From Microbacterium murale (GTDB taxonomy: Bacteria > Actinomycetota > Actinomycetes > Actinomycetales > Microbacteriaceae), in assembly GCF_014635185.1 (NCBI RefSeq), contig NZ_BMCM01000001.1, positions 806,001 to 870,000 on the forward strand: DNA of 64,000 nt, read 5' to 3'. Shown here one piece after another: positions 8,527-19,777 of this stretch. Positions within the stretch are counted from its first letter, which is position 1. Each line of letters starts with the position of its first letter. The notes beneath the pieces were generated by a model, which saw nothing but the letters and a program-made list of their open reading frames with translations, did no database searches and had not been told where the DNA came from. Both the position numbers and the translations under genes were made by a program.

Positions 8527-9332
8527 TCACTCCCCTCCTCCGACGTGCAGCCGCCATCACCACGATCATCGGCGCCCTCGGACTCGCAGGTTGCGCAGGC
8601 AGCACCGCGGATGCCGGGCCCTCTGCCGGTTCGGATGCATCAAGCGCCGACGAACTCACCGGCGAACTCACGATTTTCGCTGCGGCCTCGCTCTCTGGCG
8701 CTTTCGACGAACTGTCCGCGGAGTTCGAGAAGCAGCAGCCCGATGTCGACGTGCTGCCGATCAGCTACGACGGCTCGTCGGTGCTGGCGACGCAGCTGAT
8801 CGAAGGCGCCGCCGCCGATGTGTTCGCCTCGGCGGATGAACCCAACATGGCGAAGGTGACCGACGAAGGTCTCGCCGACGACGCATCCGCGTTCGCGACG
8901 AACATCATGCAGATCGCCGTCGCGCCCGGCAATCCGCACGAGATCGACGGCCTGGAAGACCTCACCGACACCTCGCTGCTCACGGTGCTGTGCGCCCCGG
9001 AGGTGCCCTGCGGGAACGCCTCGCACACCCTGCTCGACGCGGCCGGTCTGGCCCTGACACCCGCCAGCGAAGAGCAGAACGTCACGGCGGTGCTCACGAA
9101 GGTGAAGTCGGGCGAGGCGGATGCCGGGCTCGTCTACCGCACCGATGTCACGGCTGCAGGAGACGAAGTCGAGGGGGTCGAGATCGAAGGGGCGGAGAAG
9201 GCCACCAACGTGTATCCGCTGACGACGCTCGCGGATGCGCAGAACGCGCCGGCCGCGCAGGCCTTCGTCGACTTCGTACTCTCGGACGCCGGCCAGAAGG
9301 TGCTCGCGGACTTCGGCTTCGGGGCTCCGTGA
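8523..9332 (+). CDS. modA: Molybdate ABC transporter substrate-binding lipoprotein
   Basis: This 269-residue extracellular molybdate-binding protein starts at GTG 8523, overlapping the upstream stop. The signal peptide ends in the lipobox LAGC at residues 19-22, so the mature protein is membrane-anchored by a lipid. A Ser/Asp-rich linker follows. The ModA signature ELTIFAAASLSGAFDEL then begins the periplasmic-binding-protein fold, and the C-terminal part contains PAAQAFVDFVLSDAGQKVL, typical of the family. Coupled to modB by a GTGA overlap at 9329-9332. It captures molybdate for the cofactor genes encoded just downstream. Confidence 0.95.
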   Translation: MITPLLRRAAAITTIIGALGLAGCAGSTADAGPSAGSDASSADELTGELTIFAAASLSGAFDELSAEFEKQQPDVDVLPISYDGSSVLATQLIEGAAADVFASADEPNMAKVTDEGLADDASAFATNIMQIAVAPGNPHEIDGLEDLTDTSLLTVLCAPEVPCGNASHTLLDAAGLALTPASEEQNVTAVLTKVKSGEADAGLVYRTDVTAAGDEVEGVEIEGAEKATNVYPLTTLADAQNAPAAQAFVDFVLSDAGQKVLADFGFGAP

Positions 9333-11393: not shown

Positions 11394-12488
11394 ATGGCGA
11401 TCATTCCGATTCCCGCACCAGGGCGGGTGACAGGGGCGTCGCGCCTGCCCTCGACCGGCGGGCTGGTCGACCGGTTCGACCGCCCGATGCGCGATCTGCG
11501 GATCTCCGTGACCGACCGCTGCAATTTCCGCTGCGTGTACTGCATGCCGCGCGCGGTATTCGGTCGCGACTATGCATTCCTGGATCGTGATGAACTGCTG
11601 AGTTTCGAGGAGATCGAGCGGATCGCGCGCGTCGCGGCCGCCCACGGCGTGCGTAAACTGCGCCTGACCGGCGGCGAGCCGCTGCTGCGTCGCGGCATCG
11701 AGGAGCTCATCTCACGGCTCGCGGCGCTGCGCACGCCGGAGGGCGACAAGCTGGAGATCGCCCTCACCACGAACGGCTCGGCGCTGACCGTGAAGGCGCA
11801 GGCACTGAAGGATGCCGGGCTCGGCCGCCTCACCGTCTCGATCGACTCGCTGGACGACGAACTGTTCCAGCGGATGAACGACGTGCGCTTCCCCGTCTCG
11901 CGTGTGCTGGACGGCCTTGACGCGGCCCACGCCGCCGGCCTCGGCCCCATCAAGCTGAACATGGTCGTCAAGCGCGGACTGAACGACGGCGAGATCGAGG
12001 CGATGGCGGCCCATTTCAAGGGCACCCCGTACACGCTGCGGTTCATCGAGTACATGGACGTCGGCACATCCAATGGCTGGTCGCTCGACGAGGTGGTGCC
12101 ATCGGCCGAGATCGTCGAGCGGATCAGCGCACGGCATCCGCTCGAACCGGTGGGCGCCACGGTGACGGGCGAGACCGCCCAGCGCTGGCGCTACACCGAC
12201 GGCTCGGGTGAGATCGGCGTGATCTCCTCGGTGACCAACACGTTCTGCGGCACGTGCAATCGGGCGCGCATCTCGACGGAGGGCAAGCTGTTCACCTGCC
12301 TGTTCGCCTCAGAGGGGCACGATCTGCGGGCGCTGATGCGCGGTGGCGCCGACGACGAGCAGCTCGCCGCAGCCATGGCGGCGATCTGGGGCGCTCGGGA
12401 TGACCGGTACTCCGAGATCCGCTCGAGCCTCACCCCAGAGCTGCGCGCCTCGCGCCAGCGCATCGAGATGAGCTACATCGGGGGTTGA
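11394..12488 (+). CDS. moaA: GTP 3',8-cyclase
   Basis: This 364-residue radical-SAM enzyme performs the first step of molybdopterin synthesis, turning GTP into 3',8-cyclo-dihydro-GTP. The N-terminal cluster motif CNFRCVYC lies near residue 43 and [11 protein letters not shown] near 90. The second cluster motif [11 protein letters not shown] lies near 285, with the third cysteine in LFTCLF. The chain ends in SYIGG, the essential C-terminal Gly-Gly that reaches the active site. It is the last gene of the mod operon direction, 35 bp after modC, and is convergent with moaE. A 23-bp inverted repeat lies between them. Confidence 0.96.
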
Positions 12489-12490
12489 CT

Positions 12491-12557
12491 CGAAACTGCA
12501 AGACCACGCCGAGCCGGCCCGGTTTCGCCGCATTCTCGGCGTGGTGTTGCAGTCTCG
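12491..12557. repeat. Imperfect 23-bp inverted repeat between moaA and moaE
   Basis: The arm at 12491-12513 (CGAAACTGCAAG, then ACCACGCCGAG) is the reverse complement of the arm at 12535-12557 at 21 of 23 positions. The loop is 21 nt. It lies between the converging stops of moaA and moaE, so it can act as a bidirectional terminator. Its length and form also fit an interspersed palindromic repeat. Confidence 0.6.
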
Positions 12558-12564
12558 CGGGAGG

Positions 12565-12978
12565 TCAGAGACCGACCCACTCCGAGACGCCGTCTTCGTA
12601 GTGCTGTCGCTTCCAGATCGGCACGCCGCGCTTGATCTCCTCGACCACGAGCTCGCACGCGCGGAACGACTCCGCGCGGTGACCACCGGATGCTGCGGCA
12701 TACAGGGCGATGTCGCCGATGCGCAGATCGCCGACGCGATGCGCGGCGGCGACCAGCAGCCCGGTCTCGGCCCGCACCCGCTCGACGATCTCGGCGAGGA
12801 ACCGCGCAGCATCCGGATGCGCACGATAGTCGAGCGAGCGCACCGAGCGCCCACCGTCGTGGTCCCGCACGACACCGCAGAAGGTGACGATGGCGCCGTG
12901 CTCGTCCGAGCCAACGGCGGCGCGGACGGCCGCCTCGTCGATCGGTTCCTCGGAGATCAGCGCGAAGGTCGTCGTCAT
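12565..12978 (-). CDS. moaE: Molybdopterin synthase catalytic (large) subunit
   Basis: This 137-residue MoaE protein, with MoaD, inserts the dithiolene sulfurs into precursor Z to form molybdopterin. Family text includes IVTFCGVVRDHDGGRSV near residue 30, LDYRAHPDAA near 50 and the catalytic lysine region EEIKRGVPIWKRQHYEDG near 110-128. The length matches the family. Its ATG overlaps the moeB stop by four bases, so the two are co-translated on the minus strand. The partner MoaD is encoded divergently at 14252. Confidence 0.95.
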   Translation of the reverse strand: MTTTFALISEEPIDEAAVRAAVGSDEHGAIVTFCGVVRDHDGGRSVRSLDYRAHPDAARFLAEIVERVRAETGLLVAAAHRVGDLRIGDIALYAAASGGHRAESFRACELVVEEIKRGVPIWKRQHYEDGVSEWVGL

Positions 12979-14168
12979 GAGGTCACGTGCTCCATCCGAG
13001 CGGGATTCCTGCTCGCATCATCCGGCACTGCATCGCCGACCACGTCTCCGCCGACGGCGACGAAGGCCTGGATGCCGCCGGCGAGATACGTCACGCGGAA
13101 CCCGCGCTCGATCAGCGTGCGCACGGCGCGGCGGGAGCGCGGGTCGCGCTCGCAGTAGATGACGATCGGCTCGTCGCTCGAACCCTCCGGGATCTCCCCT
13201 GCGTCCAGACGGCCCAGCGGCAGCAGCTGCCCACCTGCTATGCGCCGCGCGCGCGCCTCGTGCGGCTCGCGCACGTCGATCAGCCGTACCGGTCGGTGCT
13301 CTCTCATCCACTGCAGCAGCTCGGCGGCCGATGTCGTCGCCGCGTCATCGGCTGCCGGCTCGCTGCGCACTCCGCAGAACTGCTCGTAGTCGATGAGTTC
13401 GGTCACCGGCGCACGCATGTCGTCAGCGGCATATGCGATCTCACGCGTGCGGGCCGTGAGCGCGTCGTAGAAGACCACCCGACCCAGCAGTGGTTCGCCG
13501 ATCCCCACGATGAGCTTGACGACCTCGGTCGCCATGAGCGATCCGATCGCGGTGCACAGGCTCGGCAGCACTCCGCCGAGCTCGCACGAGAGAGTCTCGT
13601 CGGCCGGCGGCGGTGAGGGGAACAGGTCGCGGAACGTCGGCCCGTGTTCGCGCCATGCCACTCCGACCTGTCCGTGGAAGCGCAGGATGCTGCCCCAGAC
13701 GAGCGGTTTGCCCGCGAGCTCCGCCGCGTCGTTCGCGAGGTAGCGTGTCGGGAAGTTGTCGCTTCCGTCGACGATGAGGTCGTAGCCCTCGACGATCGCG
13801 GGCAGGTTCTGCGACGTCAGTCGCTCGCGGTGGACGATCAGTTCACGCGCGGGGTCGATGGCCCGCACGGTGTCGGCGAGCGAGTCGACCTTCGCCCGCC
13901 CGATGTCGCCCGTGCCGTGGCTGAGCTGACGGTGCAGGTTCGACAGCTCGACGACGTCGTCGTCGGCGACCCCGATGGTGCCGATGCCGGAGCCGGCGAG
14001 AATGGGAACGATGGCGCTGCCGAGTCCGCCGGCGCCGATCACGAGCACGCGGGCCGCCGCGAGTCGCCGCTGCGCGTCTTCACCGAACCCGGGCAGCATC
14101 AGCTGACGGCTGTAACGTGTGATGCGCTCGGGCTCCAGCGCGGGGCCCGGCTCGACGAGCGGGATCAT
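12975..14168 (-). CDS. moeB: Molybdopterin-synthase adenylyltransferase with C-terminal rhodanese domain
   Basis: This 397-residue E1-like enzyme adenylates the C-terminal glycine of MoaD so that it can be thiolated. The ThiF/MoeB domain (residues about 15-260) starts with ITRYSRQLMLPGFG, followed by the ATP-binding VLVIGAGGLGSA and DDVVELSNLHRQ. A rhodanese domain (about 295-390) carries LIDVREPHEA and the active-site loop IYCERDPRS, so adenylation and sulfur transfer are fused as in MOCS3-type proteins. The start MIPLVEPG at 14168 was chosen over an upstream ATG because homology begins there. The paired CxxC zinc motifs common in MoeB are not evident. Confidence 0.9.
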   Translation of the reverse strand: MIPLVEPGPALEPERITRYSRQLMLPGFGEDAQRRLAAARVLVIGAGGLGSAIVPILAGSGIGTIGVADDDVVELSNLHRQLSHGTGDIGRAKVDSLADTVRAIDPARELIVHRERLTSQNLPAIVEGYDLIVDGSDNFPTRYLANDAAELAGKPLVWGSILRFHGQVGVAWREHGPTFRDLFPSPPPADETLSCELGGVLPSLCTAIGSLMATEVVKLIVGIGEPLLGRVVFYDALTARTREIAYAADDMRAPVTELIDYEQFCGVRSEPAADDAATTSAAELLQWMREHRPVRLIDVREPHEARARRIAGGQLLPLGRLDAGEIPEGSSDEPIVIYCERDPRSRRAVRTLIERGFRVTYLAGGIQAFVAVGGDVVGDAVPDDASRNPARMEHVTS

Positions 14169-14251
14169 GGTTGCAATAGTACGCGTCGAACTCCGCCAGT
14201 CGGCAGCGAGTTTCCACGATACGAAGATCGAATTCCACACTCTGAACTAGA

Positions 14252-14509
14252 ATGGACAGCATGGCAATCGTGACGGTGCGATACTTCGCTGCCGCCTCTG
14301 AGGCAGCGGGTCGCGAGCAGGAGGAGCTCGATCTCGGCTCCGATTCGACCCTCGGCGGGCTGCGCGAGGTTCTGGTCCGCAATTACGGCGAGCCGATGGC
14401 GCGCGTGCTCCGGTCCGGCTCGTTCCTTCTCGATGGCGTGGTGCGCCGCGACCTCGCCCATCCCACCGGCGCGCAGGTCGACATCCTTCCGCCGTTCGCC
14501 GGAGGATGA
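14252..14509 (+). CDS. moaD: Molybdopterin synthase sulfur carrier (small) subunit
   Basis: This 85-residue ubiquitin-fold protein ends in FAGG, the Gly-Gly tail adenylated by MoeB and thiolated for transfer. The beginning VTVRYFAAASEAAGREQEEL is typical of MoaD. An in-frame ATG three codons downstream (14261) is an equally good start. The gene is divergent from moeB across about 80 bp and is followed after 7 bp by moeA, heading the moaD-moeA-moaC-mog operon. Confidence 0.93.
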   Translation: MDSMAIVTVRYFAAASEAAGREQEELDLGSDSTLGGLREVLVRNYGEPMARVLRSGSFLLDGVVRRDLAHPTGAQVDILPPFAGG

Positions 14510-14516
14510 TCGAACC

Positions 14517-15815
14517 ATGACTTCGAACCCAATCGCCCCGGCGCAGCACCCGGCCACCCCGGCGGAGCACGCCGACGCCGTGTCGCAGTTGCTCGCCCCG
14601 ATCTTCGACAGCCTTGCCGATGATGCGCGATCCGAGTTGATCGCGCTGAGCCGGGGCGCAGCATCCGGCCGTGTCCTGGCGGCGGATGTGCGCAGCCCGA
14701 TCACCGTGCCGCCGTTCCGGAACTCGCAGATGGACGGATACGCCGTCCGCGCTGCCGACCTGGAATCGGCCGCCGCCGATGCCCCGGCGACTCTGCGCAT
14801 CGGCACGACCAGTGCCGCCGGCGACGCCGTGCACGAACACGTTCCCGGCACTGCTGCGCCGGTGATGACCGGTGCGCCGATCCCCTCGGGAGCGGATGCC
14901 GTCGTGCCGATCGAGATCGCGGATCCGCCGCGCTTCATCGGCATCGGCACCGAGACGGGCGAGAGCTCCGCGGACACCACAGTCCGCTTCTACGCGCCGG
15001 TGCAGGCCGGTGCGTTCGTGCGTGAGGCGGGTGCCGACCTCGCAGCGGGGTCGACGATCCTGCCGGCCGGCACGCGGCTGGGACCTGCGCAACTGGGCTC
15101 GCTGGCCTCCGCCGGAGTCACCGAGGTGCGGGTGCGGGCGCGTCCGGTCGTGCTGCTGCTCTCCACCGGTCATGAGCTGCGTGCACCGGGCGACGAGCTC
15201 GAGCCGGGGCAGATCTACGACGCGAACACCGCGTCGCTCACGGCGGCGATGGAGGACTCCGGTGCGATCGTGCAGGTCGCCTTCGCCCCGGACGACGCCT
15301 CGGCCGTGCTCCACGCGATCGCACAGCATCCGGATGCCGACCTGATCGTCACGACCGGCGGAGTCAGCGCCGGCGCCTTCGAGGTGGTGCGCGACGCTCT
15401 CGAGCCGGCCGGCGTGCGGTTCGGAAAGGTGGCGATGCAGCCGGGCGGTCCGCAGGGACTGGGGACCGCCCGGCTGCATGAACGAGCGGTGCCCGTCATC
15501 GCGTTCCCCGGCAATCCGGTCTCCGCCCTGCTGTCGTTCGAGATGTTCCTCCGCCCGATCCTGCGCAGGTCCGCCGGGCTCGATCCCTGTCGTCGTGTGC
15601 AGCGGGCCCCGTTGGCCGAGGCCCTCAGCTCCCCGCGCGAGAAGCACCAGATCCGTCGCGGACGATTGCGCGCGGACGGTAGCGTCGAGGTGGGAGCTCC
15701 TGGTTCGCACCTGCTGCACGACTACGCGCGGGCGACGGTCCTGGTGCACGTTCCGATCGGCGTCGACGCGCTCCCCGCGGGCGCCGAGGTCGAGGTATGG
15801 AGAATCGATGAGTGA
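14517..15815 (+). CDS. moeA: Molybdopterin molybdotransferase
   Basis: This 432-residue MoeA inserts molybdate into adenylated molybdopterin. Domain order is normal: the N-terminal block VTVPPFRNSQMDGYAVR near residue 65, VMTGAPIPSGADAVVPIE near 118, the MoaB-like domain with YDANTASLTAAM near 240 and TTGGVSAGAFEVV near 280, then PGNPVSALLSFEMF and a C-terminal beta domain. It starts at ATG 14517, 7 bp after moaD. Its stop overlaps moaC by eight bases. Confidence 0.95.
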   Translation: MTSNPIAPAQHPATPAEHADAVSQLLAPIFDSLADDARSELIALSRGAASGRVLAADVRSPITVPPFRNSQMDGYAVRAADLESAAADAPATLRIGTTSAAGDAVHEHVPGTAAPVMTGAPIPSGADAVVPIEIADPPRFIGIGTETGESSADTTVRFYAPVQAGAFVREAGADLAAGSTILPAGTRLGPAQLGSLASAGVTEVRVRARPVVLLLSTGHELRAPGDELEPGQIYDANTASLTAAMEDSGAIVQVAFAPDDASAVLHAIAQHPDADLIVTTGGVSAGAFEVVRDALEPAGVRFGKVAMQPGGPQGLGTARLHERAVPVIAFPGNPVSALLSFEMFLRPILRRSAGLDPCRRVQRAPLAEALSSPREKHQIRRGRLRADGSVEVGAPGSHLLHDYARATVLVHVPIGVDALPAGAEVEVWRIDE

Positions 15816-16278
15816 CCTGACGCACCTGCGTTCCGACGGCTCGGCCCACATGGTCGATGTCACCGACAAGGCGGTCACGCGACGCGAGGCGCGCGCACAG
15901 GCGGTGCTCGTGACGACCGAAGAGGTCGTGGCGAAGATCGCCGACGGCTCGCTGCCGAAGGGCGAGGCACTGGGAACGGCACGTCTGGCCGGCATCATGG
16001 GCGCCAAGCAGACGTCGAACCTGATCCCGCTGTGCCACCCGCTGCCGCTGACCAAGCTCTCGGTCGACCTCGAACCACAGGGCGACCGCGTGCGGATCGT
16101 CGCGACCGCGGTGACCAACGGCGTCACCGGCGTCGAGATGGAGGCGCTGACCGCCGCGAACATCGCGGCCCTGACGCTCTACGACATGATCAAGGCCGTC
16201 GACAATCGCGCCGTGATCACCGACGTGCTCGTACTGGCGAAGTCGGGCGGCAAGAGCGGCGACTGGTCTCGCGAATGA
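15808..16278 (+). CDS. moaC: Cyclic pyranopterin monophosphate synthase
   Basis: This 156-residue MoaC converts the MoaA product into precursor Z. The family core LIPLCHPLPLTKL lies near residue 73 and GVTGVEMEALTAANIAAL near 110, followed by YDMIKAVD with its conserved lysine. The N-terminus HMVDVTDKAVTRREARA is also standard. The ATG at 15808 lies within the end of moeA, and its TGA overlaps the next ATG, so the whole moaD-mog set is tightly coupled. Confidence 0.96.
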   Translation: MSDLTHLRSDGSAHMVDVTDKAVTRREARAQAVLVTTEEVVAKIADGSLPKGEALGTARLAGIMGAKQTSNLIPLCHPLPLTKLSVDLEPQGDRVRIVATAVTNGVTGVEMEALTAANIAALTLYDMIKAVDNRAVITDVLVLAKSGGKSGDWSRE

Positions 16279-16754
16279 CCAGGCGCGCCGCGGTTCTCGT
16301 CGCCTCGACCCGTGCGGCGGCGGGGACATACGAGGATCGCACCGGTCCGGTGGTCGCCGAGTGGCTGCGTGCCCGCGGTTTCGAGGTGGCAGGTCCGGTC
16401 GTCGTGGCGGATGCCGCGATCGCCGATGCACTCGCGGAGCTGCTCGCGGAGCATCCGGATCTGATTCTCACCACCGGCGGAACCGGCGTCTCACCCGATG
16501 ACCGCACACCGGAGGCGACCAGGAAGCTGCTGGACCTGGAGCTGCCTGGCATCGCCGAGGAGGTCCGAAGGCGCGGAGCCGCCATCACACCGACGGCGAT
16601 CCTCAGCCGGGCTGTCGCCGGTGTCGCCGGCCGCACGCTCGTGATGAACCTCCCCGGCTCGACCGGCGGGGTGCGTGACGGGCTCGCCGTGCTCGACGAC
16701 GTTCTCGATCACCTGCTCGACCAGATCACCGGTGGGGACCATCCGGGGCACTGA
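16275..16754 (+). CDS. mog: MogA/MoaB family molybdopterin adenylyltransferase
   Basis: This 159-residue protein adenylates molybdopterin before MoeA loads the metal. Conserved stretches are LILTTGGTGVSPDDRTPEAT near residue 65 and NLPGSTGGVRDGLAVLDDVL near 130. It starts at ATG 16275, overlapping the moaC stop, and is last in the operon. No mobA-type nucleotidyltransferase is present in the window. Xanthine-dehydrogenase-family enzymes may need a cytidylyl or unmodified cofactor, and which form is made here cannot be told. The 148 bp that follow (16755-16902) show no gene. Confidence 0.92.
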   Translation: MTRRAAVLVASTRAAAGTYEDRTGPVVAEWLRARGFEVAGPVVVADAAIADALAELLAEHPDLILTTGGTGVSPDDRTPEATRKLLDLELPGIAEEVRRRGAAITPTAILSRAVAGVAGRTLVMNLPGSTGGVRDGLAVLDDVLDHLLDQITGGDHPGH

Positions 16755-18112: not shown

Positions 18113-19483
18113 TCACCACCGGATGCGCAGGAACTCCTGACGAAGCCGCGCCCCTCGCGGCGGGTTCAGGCTCTCGACCCACGAGATGCGGCCCAGCAGG
18201 TGCGCACGGAAATCGTCGAGACTGCGGTGATTCTGGGTGTGCGGACCGTGGAGGACGCAGTTGTGGATCGTCGCCTTGAGCCGATCGAAGTCGGCGCGCG
18301 AGACGTTGGCGCGCTGGTTGACGACGATCCCTGTAACGGTCTGTCTGACTCCCTGACGCCTGACCCTCGTCTTCCGCGGGTTGGCCAAATGCCCTTCGTC
18401 TTCGATGATCCGCTGCACTCCGCGGATGAAGGCATCCGGGCGCTTGGCGAGTGTCGAGCCGCCGCTGAACGCGAGGTCGTCCGCGTATCGCGTGTACGTC
18501 GCATCGACGGCATCCGCCCATCCGGTCAGTCGTGAATCGAGACGCCGGATCGCGAGGTTGGCGAGCATCGGCGAGGAGGGAGCGCCCTGCGGCAGATGAC
18601 TCGTTGCCAGAGCCTGGCGCAGGGCGAACCGCTCTTCGGGTGAGCCGCCGGGCGGCATGGCCGCGAGCACGCGCGGAGGGACGGCGTTGGTGCACAGCCC
18701 GGTGATCACGTGCGAGACGGGTTCGGACAATCCCGACTGACGGAGCGTGCCGAAGATGCGGCCCGCTGTCACACGGGCGAAGAATGTGGTGAGGTCGAGC
18801 GATATGACGATGTCGGATCCCGTGTGGTGCGCGGCCCCGGTGACCGCGCTGCGGCCGGGGACGAAGCCGTGGGCGGCGCCGTTCACGGGAATGAGGCCGA
18901 GCACCCTCTCCAGGAGCGTGCGCTGCACACGGCGCATCCGCTGCTCGGGGATCTCCAGCAGTCTGGGGATCCGCCCTGGCCGTGCGCGCCACTCGTACTG
19001 GTAGTGGTGCAGTGGCCCTGGGCGCGCGCGGCGATTCCACTGCTTCGTGTCGGCGAGCCACTGGAGCCGTCCGACGTCCAGATCGAGGAGGACGGCGAGA
19101 TCCGGGATGCTGTCGATACGGGGAAGCGGGCCCGACGGCGGCTGCGACGTCGAGGGACCGACGACGTGGTGGTGGATGCGCAGCGGCGAACGGCGCTCGT
19201 CTGCCTTGCGCACCGCCTCGATGAAGTCGGGCGCGCGGAGGATCACCGAGGTGAGCAGGCGTGGGGCATCGACGGGTGCGCGGACGAATGCGCTCATCAC
19301 GTCGCCCACGAGCGGTGTGAGCCATCGGCGACGAGCTCCCATGACGAACGCTCCGGTTCGGATCAGCTCTTTCGGCGCCCAGACCTCTGACGCGAGGAAC
19401 GCGTCGGCCAGAGATGCGGCCACGGACGACGGCAGCGGGCGCGGCGTGCGAGCGAGCACACGTGATGCGGTGGTGGCCGCCAT
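18113..19483 (-). CDS. Retron-type reverse transcriptase
   Basis: This 456-residue RNA-directed DNA polymerase shows retron-group features. Catalytic motifs are SLDLTTFF (Asp 230), LPQGAPSSP at 297-305 and RYADDLAFSGG with the YADD box at 333-336. The retron-specific VTG motif appears at 383-385 (QTVTGIVVN), and GAAHH at 216-220 sits where retron enzymes have NAxxH, with the Asn replaced. AHGFVPGRS at 204-212 is standard. Unlike typical 300-350-residue retron enzymes there is an N-terminal extension of about 120 residues with no recognised motif. An inverted-repeat RNA candidate lies 45 nt upstream. No gene is co-oriented on either side, so this is a single-gene unit. Function is probably phage defence by analogy with retrons. 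Confidence 0.88.
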   Translation of the reverse strand: MAATTASRVLARTPRPLPSSVAASLADAFLASEVWAPKELIRTGAFVMGARRRWLTPLVGDVMSAFVRAPVDAPRLLTSVILRAPDFIEAVRKADERRSPLRIHHHVVGPSTSQPPSGPLPRIDSIPDLAVLLDLDVGRLQWLADTKQWNRRARPGPLHHYQYEWRARPGRIPRLLEIPEQRMRRVQRTLLERVLGLIPVNGAAHGFVPGRSAVTGAAHHTGSDIVISLDLTTFFARVTAGRIFGTLRQSGLSEPVSHVITGLCTNAVPPRVLAAMPPGGSPEERFALRQALATSHLPQGAPSSPMLANLAIRRLDSRLTGWADAVDATYTRYADDLAFSGGSTLAKRPDAFIRGVQRIIEDEGHLANPRKTRVRRQGVRQTVTGIVVNQRANVSRADFDRLKATIHNCVLHGPHTQNHRSLDDFRAHLLGRISWVESLNPPRGARLRQEFLRIRW

Positions 19484-19527
19484 CAGAGGGCAGTCATGGA
19501 ACGGGCGCCGGCCCGATCGTCGTGCGG

Positions 19528-19696
19528 CGTGCGATGGCCTGCGTACGACTCATCCATCAGTGCGGGCGCTGTATTGCGCGAAGCGCAAGGAGGCGCCTGC
19601 GGCGTTCGTTCCAGGTCAGACTGCGTACCCCGGGGTGACCCCGGAGAGAGCGGAACACATCGTGAACCACTCGCCTCGTCCGCAAGCCATCGCACG
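19528..19696 (-). ncRNA. Candidate retron msr-msd RNA
   Basis: Read on the minus strand, the segment begins with CGTGCGATGGCTTGCG (19696-19681) and ends with CGCAGGCCATCGCACG (19543-19528). These pair over all 16 positions with one G-U wobble, and after one mismatch four further pairs form (19679-19676 with 19548-19545). This matches the a1/a2 stem of retron RNAs. Inside are a G/C hairpin at 19646-19628 (8 pairs, 3-nt loop) and a longer hairpin at 19597-19565, GGCGC and TTGCGC paired with GCGCAA and GCGCC. These would suit msr and msd stems. The usual AGC around the branching guanosine was not identified, so the exact msr/msd border is unknown. The a2 arm ends 45 nt before the reverse transcriptase start. 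Confidence 0.7.
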
Positions 19697-19701
19697 GCGC
19701 C

Positions 19702-19707
19702 ACGATA
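19702..19707 (-). promoter_or_regulatory. Putative -10 element for the retron RNA
   Basis: The minus strand reads TATCGT here, five bases upstream of the a1 arm. A start 6-7 bases downstream would put the RNA 5' end at the first base of a1, as expected for a retron transcript. No convincing -35 was seen. Confidence 0.4.
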
Positions 19708-19777
19708 GCAAGGAACACCGACGTCCGGACGGCACCGCCAGCATCCGGTCCCCGCGCGGGGCGGTTAGCATTCAGGA

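Follow-up and report, generated by a model that had tools for sequence, protein, structure and literature searches.

Does the reverse transcriptase (RT) gene at this locus of Microbacterium murale form a retron with the RNA encoded just upstream of it, and could the same RNA also be a message that is translated? The window, that is the whole stretch of 64,000 nucleotides that was analysed, encodes on its minus strand a retron-type RT of 456 aa (18113-19483), recognised from the ORF and from profile and PDB matches. The N-terminal extension of this RT comprises about 120 aa (19483-19124, minus strand). In the RT alignment, the YADD catalytic motif (Y333-D336; 18476-18487, minus strand) and the VTG motif of region Y (V383-G385; 18329-18337, minus strand) are invariant in 10 of 10 aligned RTs. 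The sequence-only reading of this DNA had named both motifs and had described a degenerate NAxxH, GAAHH, and all three are present. GAAHH occupies the NAxxH position of region X (18824-18838, minus strand), where A and H are retained in 10 of 10 aligned RTs and N is not. Toro 2014 described the variation of VTG and NAxxH, and in that survey N is retained in 62% of the retron RTs with the motif (PMC4244168); the atypical NAxxH of the window is therefore within known variation. Microbacterium is the genus of the named relatives whose RTs are 81 and 86% identical, which agrees with the Microbacterium-like host proposed earlier.

The window RT belongs to the retron clade. The PADLOC retron models RT_other (574 bits) and RT_outgroup (538 bits) matched it over nearly the full length; they are protein models, and their names give no retron type or effector. 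RT_XIII, the model of type XIII, was third best with 283 bits, half of the RT_other score. This match starts at profile position 109 and residue 119, and therefore RT_XIII and the window RT both have an N-terminal extension. The PDB matches were retron RTs, Ec86 among them, the NCBIfam retron models matched with scores below their curated cut-offs, and in Pfam only RVT_1 was above the cut-off. The NCBIfam search also gave weak matches to the Drt2 and Drt3a models. These matches, together with the lack of a recurring effector gene described below, would suit a DRT-like system, that is a non-retron, RNA-templated RT system with a product other than branched msDNA. We regard this as most improbable, because the retron models score far higher, VTG is invariant in the ten aligned RTs, and the paired arms of the upstream RNA are flanked by G on both sides.

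The sequence-only reading had placed a segment with paired ends, containing a GC hairpin and a longer stem-loop, upstream of the RT. The ends correspond to an a1 arm (19700-19676, of which 19695-19676 would be transcribed) and an a2 arm (19548-19524), both on the minus strand and both defined by stem scan, alignment and covariation, and the two inner elements are present and conserved in relatives. Folding of 19528-19705 pairs the two ends over 16 bp and, beyond one mismatch, over more; none of 200 dinucleotide shuffles did as well (z = -3.1). The core between a1 and a2 is 127 nt in the window. The inner loop has the same length in nearly all Microbacteriaceae loci examined, with 126 nt in seven and 128 nt in one, and larger departures are found in four loci of one genus (L091, L094, L096 and L097). 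The first base after a1 is a G (19675, minus strand) that all 33 aligned RNAs share and that is the candidate branching G; the last base before a2 is another G that is invariant in the RNA alignment (19549, minus strand). The G after a1 lies in A-G-G and not in A-G-C, consistent with the earlier remark that the AGC motif is missing there. For this and for GAAHH the locus had been called unlike the textbook types.

Three further elements lie between the arms on the minus strand. Stem-loop 1 of the msr (19648-19672; helices 3-4) covaries. Hairpin 2 of the msr (19628-19646; helix 5) has the near-invariant sequence CUCCGGGGNNACCCCGGGG, and there is no variation in 7 of its 8 pairs. The third is a covarying stem-loop with a GCGCUUCGCGC-type tip (19562-19600; helices 6-7), which is the putative msd. 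For the covariation analysis 63 RNAs were collected, of which 35 were under 93% identical and had a 127-nt loop. From these, five that were out of register were dropped (L059, L061, L063, L064 and L065), and three RNAs with a 126-nt loop were added (L047, L087 and L089), giving 33. Over 49 pairs in these 33 RNAs, 95.0% of the cells are paired. Changes on both sides with pairing retained were found in 31 of the 49 pairs among the 33 chosen relatives, and in 16 of the 18 pairs of the a1/a2 stem. On each of five covariation measures, 0 of 500 shuffles were as high, and sliding the partner positions reduced pairing to 38-48%. The a1/a2 stem is therefore more than chance, because it recurs around a 127-nt loop and its arms change in concert. 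Rfam had no match in the whole window at its thresholds. Below the thresholds, a weak Guanidine-III match within 19480-19760 (12 bits, E = 3) was rejected as chance.

RT relatives were found in 15 of 367 genomes of the genus (14 close and one distant at 33%), in 49 of 398 genomes and 14 of 85 genera of the family sample, in 15 of 396 genomes of the order sample and in 15 of 394 of the class sample. All four genome tallies count the window's own genome, and five matches overall are distant RTs at 29-33% identity. Nine named contigs carry RT relatives, from Microbacterium, Leifsonia, Frigoribacterium, Curtobacterium, Agreia and Naasia. An RNA model, R1, was run across 363 genomes of the genus and matched 15, namely the 14 with a close RT, once each, and one further genome, G133. 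R1 also matched 53 of 57 sources with E up to 4e-7, class-level relatives at 40-51% RT identity included; several places are represented twice among these sources, and the window, L056 and L100 are in, or equal to, training rows of the model. The four misses were the distant RTs L016, L068 and L081 and a locus at a contig start (L084). These data show a structured a1/a2 RNA that is linked to the RT.

The locus in G133 (L137, 4584-4713), where R1 covers 130 nt with 61.5 bits, is a deletion remnant of the cassette. Its upstream flank is that of the window (the S4 side, 92% over 291 bp), and the downstream flank of the window had no match in G133. By eye, the RNA is kept in its 5' half, as is the promoter box. 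No RT was found in the 9 kb of G133 searched, where the best tblastn match had E = 1.5 and the matches included a scrap of 8 identical residues. The sole RT loss seen is thus also one with a broken RNA.

Related RTs (43% identity) with a recognisable RNA are also present on Burkholderia megaplasmids (L158, 2605-2780; L162, 2630-2805), where R1 scored 37 and 42 bits. R1 did not match the plasmid loci L161 (Methylobacterium), L163 and L164. No RT relative was found in the viral contigs searched, and no phage record covered 80% of the RT. The distant RTs constitute a second family (L016, L068 and L081, with G440 and G539), with 29-33% identity and ORFs of 373-380 aa, and R1 gave no match on L016, L068 or L081. 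In one locus (L097, genome G464) the RT was reported as two pieces in different frames.

The covarying RNA, its linkage to the RT, and the PADLOC and PDB matches to retron RTs strongly support the proposal, first made from the letters alone, that the RNA and RT of the window are a retron. The covariation check suggested with that proposal, in relatives that keep the RT, gave both-side changes in nearly all a1/a2 pairs, and RNA and RT co-occur. As a known system we used the L165 locus of E. coli BL21(DE3), which we take to be Retron-Eco1 (Ec86). Like the window, Ec86 has its RNA just 5' of the RT with a1/a2 arms (12 bp, with a loop of 145 nt), and a G adjoining a1 on its 3' side and a2 on its 5' side. 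Unlike the window, it has an annotated effector gene beside it and AGC at the branch. In Ec86 (L165, 8800-8969), an ATG at the start of a1 opens a frame of 51 codons that spans most of the msr-msd, a single case that may be chance; this frame ends 23 nt before an in-frame ATG at 8976, without the overlap seen in the window, and the RT CDS starts at 9051 in RefSeq. The myxobacterial retrons Mx162 and Sa163 have a long RT and no known effector gene, as in the window. Mx162 and Sa163, which we liken to the window by description, are vertically inherited according to the available portion of PMC6868368, whereas the window cassette is found at more than one site in its genus.

The 5' end of the RNA suggests a second function. 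The TATCGT box that had been noted as -10-like was found at 19707-19702 on the minus strand; it fits TAnnnT and lies 6 nt before a GTG (19693-19695, minus strand) inside a1, which by promoter spacing and fold would be both the transcription start of the RNA/RT transcript and a leaderless start codon. The 82 distinct RNAs comprise 76 encoded on the same strand as the RT and 6 on the opposite one. ATG or GTG (RTG) was found at the 5' end of a1 in 69 of the 76 same-strand RNAs, a count in which the choice of RTG favours one behind a -10 box, and a strict TAnnnT precedes 60 of these 69, at 6 nt in 43 and at 7 nt in 17. When the first RTG at the RNA start was taken blindly, 71 of 76 RNAs had one, with a spacing of 6 or 7 in 51 of 71; both the spacing peak and the open-frame excess described below remain in this recount. 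Once the retron was masked, the host DNA around these loci also showed peaks in the TAnnnT-to-RTG distance at 6 (103 cases) and 7 (50), vs 17-31 at the other fourteen spacings. Host ORFs of at least 200 aa begin at spacings 6 and 7 in 36 and 13 cases, vs 0-6 elsewhere, and a control in which retron RNAs were removed only by a hairpin filter gave the same peak. TAnnnT followed after 6-7 nt by RTG is the layout of leaderless genes: in the accessible part of PMC4633059, actinobacterial leaderless mRNAs have TAnnnT, 6-7 nt and an RTG at the inferred +1. Unlike those mRNAs, the message of the window would also be a structured template-primer of an RT.

A leader ORF of 70 codons opens at the a1 GTG and spans the entire RNA (19483-19695, minus strand). 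The sequence-only reading had passed over it, although it was visible in the ORF list. Its stop codon TGA (19485-19483) shares its A with the ATG of the RT, forming TGATG. The peptide matched no PADLOC family. Among the 69 RNAs with an RTG, 66 have no stop in the RTG frame up to the end of the RNA, compared with 37 and 38 for the two other frames; with the blind choice of RTG the numbers are 64 of 71 for frame 0 and 42 and 39 for the others. These numbers should be read with the caution that GC-rich hairpins hold few stops in whatever frame and that the tallies mix close relatives. Relative to the RTG, the RT frame is +2 in 43, 0 in 20 and +1 in 6 of the 69, and +2 in 38, 0 in 20 and +1 in 13 of the 71 blind cases.

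When the leader frame was followed in 70 loci, it was fused to the RT in 18 and passed to it by one stop-start overlap (RTGA or TGATG) in 43, and two or three overlaps were needed in 4; given a TGA stop, an RTGA overlap by chance is not rare. The RT was not reached in 5 (L056, L061, L064, L067 and L080), of which L061, L064 and L067 fail the overlap rule and by eye have an 8-nt overlap, GTGnCTGA. In L037, L055, L070 and L075 each leader stop overlaps a new start, and the chains still reach the RT. Control frames reached the RT by the same rule in 29 and 31 of 70 loci, an impure control since one control frame is usually the RT frame. A test in which the RT start was not assumed used the 50 loci without direct fusion, with L056 and L080 left out. 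With the RT start projected by homology, frame 0 had its first stop no more than 45 nt away in 34 of the 50 loci, vs 1 and 2 for the other frames, and no more than 10 nt away in 18, vs 0 and 0. On Tsukamurella and Dietzia plasmids, the annotated RT start is the overlapping ATG.

Six fused loci of one genus, Curtobacterium as judged from L022 (L022, L036, L041, L042, L045 and L051), have no in-frame ATG, GTG or TTG between the a1 RTG and codon 83, and homology to the window RT begins at codon 51, ahead of codon 83. The simplest reading is therefore that translation of their RT begins at the a1 RTG and passes through the RNA. A quick tree of 80 RTs, with the states of L091, L094, L096 and L097 assigned by hand, has only 5 changes between the coupled and the fused state. 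L086 has one extra RNA base compared with its sisters and is fused where the sisters are coupled. Taken together, these observations show a conserved open frame leading into the RT.

Retron RNAs are called non-coding, for example in the accessible text of PMC12548924, and the window could be an ordinary retron of this kind. Its open frame and stop-start overlap would then be by-products of GC-rich sequence, and its 5' purine-TG would reflect a transcription-start preference or a constraint on the RNA. The frequent openness of the other frames fits this explanation, the RNA alone could set the leader peptide sequence, and the Burkholderia homologues retain the RNA although an RTG leader was not seen in them by eye. 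But a stop near the RT start is typical of frame 0 only (34 of 50, vs 1 and 2), fusion is found in several lineages and includes the six loci without another start before codon 83, and the RTG is lost where the RNA is inverted, in 6 of 6 cases. A non-coding RNA is accordingly an unlikely explanation.

The inverted RNAs are in six loci of one genus (L048, L053, L087, L089, L090 and L092) that form one clade in the quick RT tree, and all six lack the RTG at a1. They would provide a natural experiment that separates a trans action of the RNA from its coding role. These loci have a palindromic CCAGCCTAGGCTGG-like box on the 5' side of the RNA, between RNA and RT, which could be a two-way -10. Two same-strand RNAs also have no RTG in place: that of L033, from the genus of the inverted loci, begins 391 nt ahead of the projected RT start, and that of L056, from another family, 328 nt ahead of it. 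Distance alone does not explain this loss, because L049, L093 and L024 (383, 349 and 323 nt) retain the RTG, with the frame fused or coupled. No RTG is in place in L079. In L094, L096 and L097 the a1 RTG is absent and an ATG lies inside the RNA behind a purine-rich GGAGGG-like site; the frame of this ATG overlaps a start codon in the RT frame (GTG, GTG and TTG, respectively). In L091, an internal ATG is fused to the RT.

Conservation of the inverted RNAs suggests that the RNA acts in trans. This bears on another explanation, that the RNA is a cis-acting regulatory leader of the RT gene, an attenuator or translational switch, which is not reverse transcribed. Such a leader would be expected where the RNA is found, usually just 5' of the RT and beginning with a start codon that a1/a2 pairing could hide. 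The six opposite-strand RNAs are still conserved, Ec86 has the same a1/a2 layout and G positions, and the RT is of the retron kind. All three points speak against a purely cis-acting leader, which we consider very unlikely.

We consider it probable that the locus is a two-gene actinobacterial retron, with no effector found alongside, whose RNA doubles as a leaderless message. The signs that point to a translated message are of several kinds, all read from sequence. Sequence comparison shows a conserved RNA that covaries and is tied to the RT, the distance kept between TAnnnT and RTG, a conserved open frame, and its overlap with the RT start or fusion to the RT. From these we infer the transcription start, translation, msDNA, a switch and any biological role. 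Transcription would start at the GTG that opens a1, and a ribosome on this 5'-terminal GTG would translate the msr and msd and restart on the RT at the overlapping TGATG; in other lineages the leader frame would continue straight into the RT. In the predicted fold the a1 GTG is base-paired to CAC of a2, which should make translation and template folding mutually exclusive. Pairing of a1 with a2 would bury the start codon and exclude the ribosome, and the RNA would then be the template-primer of the RT, with priming from the G after a1 and the msd copied from the G before a2. Folding, perhaps aided by bound RT, would limit RT synthesis, and a drop in translation under stress or phage attack would free the RNA for msDNA. 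There is about an even chance that the template-primer RNA itself is translated in this way and that its translation into the RT, on the one side, and its folding and reverse transcription, on the other, compete, which would make it a built-in switch between enzyme and msDNA production.

Tripartite defence retrons of types I-XIII are recognised by an effector gene or a fused effector domain, and neither was apparent here. No effector gene that recurs near the cassette emerged when 2537 ORFs (90 aa or longer, at most 4.5 kb from the RT) were clustered from 61 loci under 29 genus labels, a few of them duplicate labels for one genus. The four most widely shared clusters were the RT and frames overlapping it, the next had 8 ORFs at varied positions under 6 labels, and three further clusters had 4 labels. 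The ten neighbours in the window are RibD_C, S4, ECF sigma factor, NAD-binding, SDR, hydrolase and MoeA genes or are unassigned, and PADLOC matched none of the ten. An unlinked effector may exist, or the function may reside in the N-terminal extension of the RT. Within the genus, both flanks of the window are common to L018 (= L126), the upstream flank is shared with L124, and L120 shares the flanks in part; they are not shared with L119, L121, L122, L123, L125 and L127. Because the flanks differ among loci, the cassette is present at more than one site within the genus.

Putative retrons in Actinobacteria were reported by Simon 2019, and the accessible part of that work describes the cassette as a promoter, msr with the priming G, msd and RT (PMC6868368). 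What is new here is that a retron RNA also looks like a leaderless message. In the open literature, retrons and leaderless or coupled translation were not joined in the matches listed, as judged by title and abstract, and open papers containing both 'retron' and 'leaderless' dealt with other subjects. If our reading is true, a large actinobacterial retron family has an RNA that carries the start codon for its own RT, and translation vs reverse transcription on one molecule would be a regulatory principle that is easily testable. It would also supply a searchable RNA family and GC-rich retrons that may suit actinobacterial hosts.

Molybdenum cofactor genes lie near the retron in the window (11394-16754). 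MoeA was identified by Pfam, and the remaining genes in this stretch are presumed molybdenum cofactor genes, named from their ORF translations.
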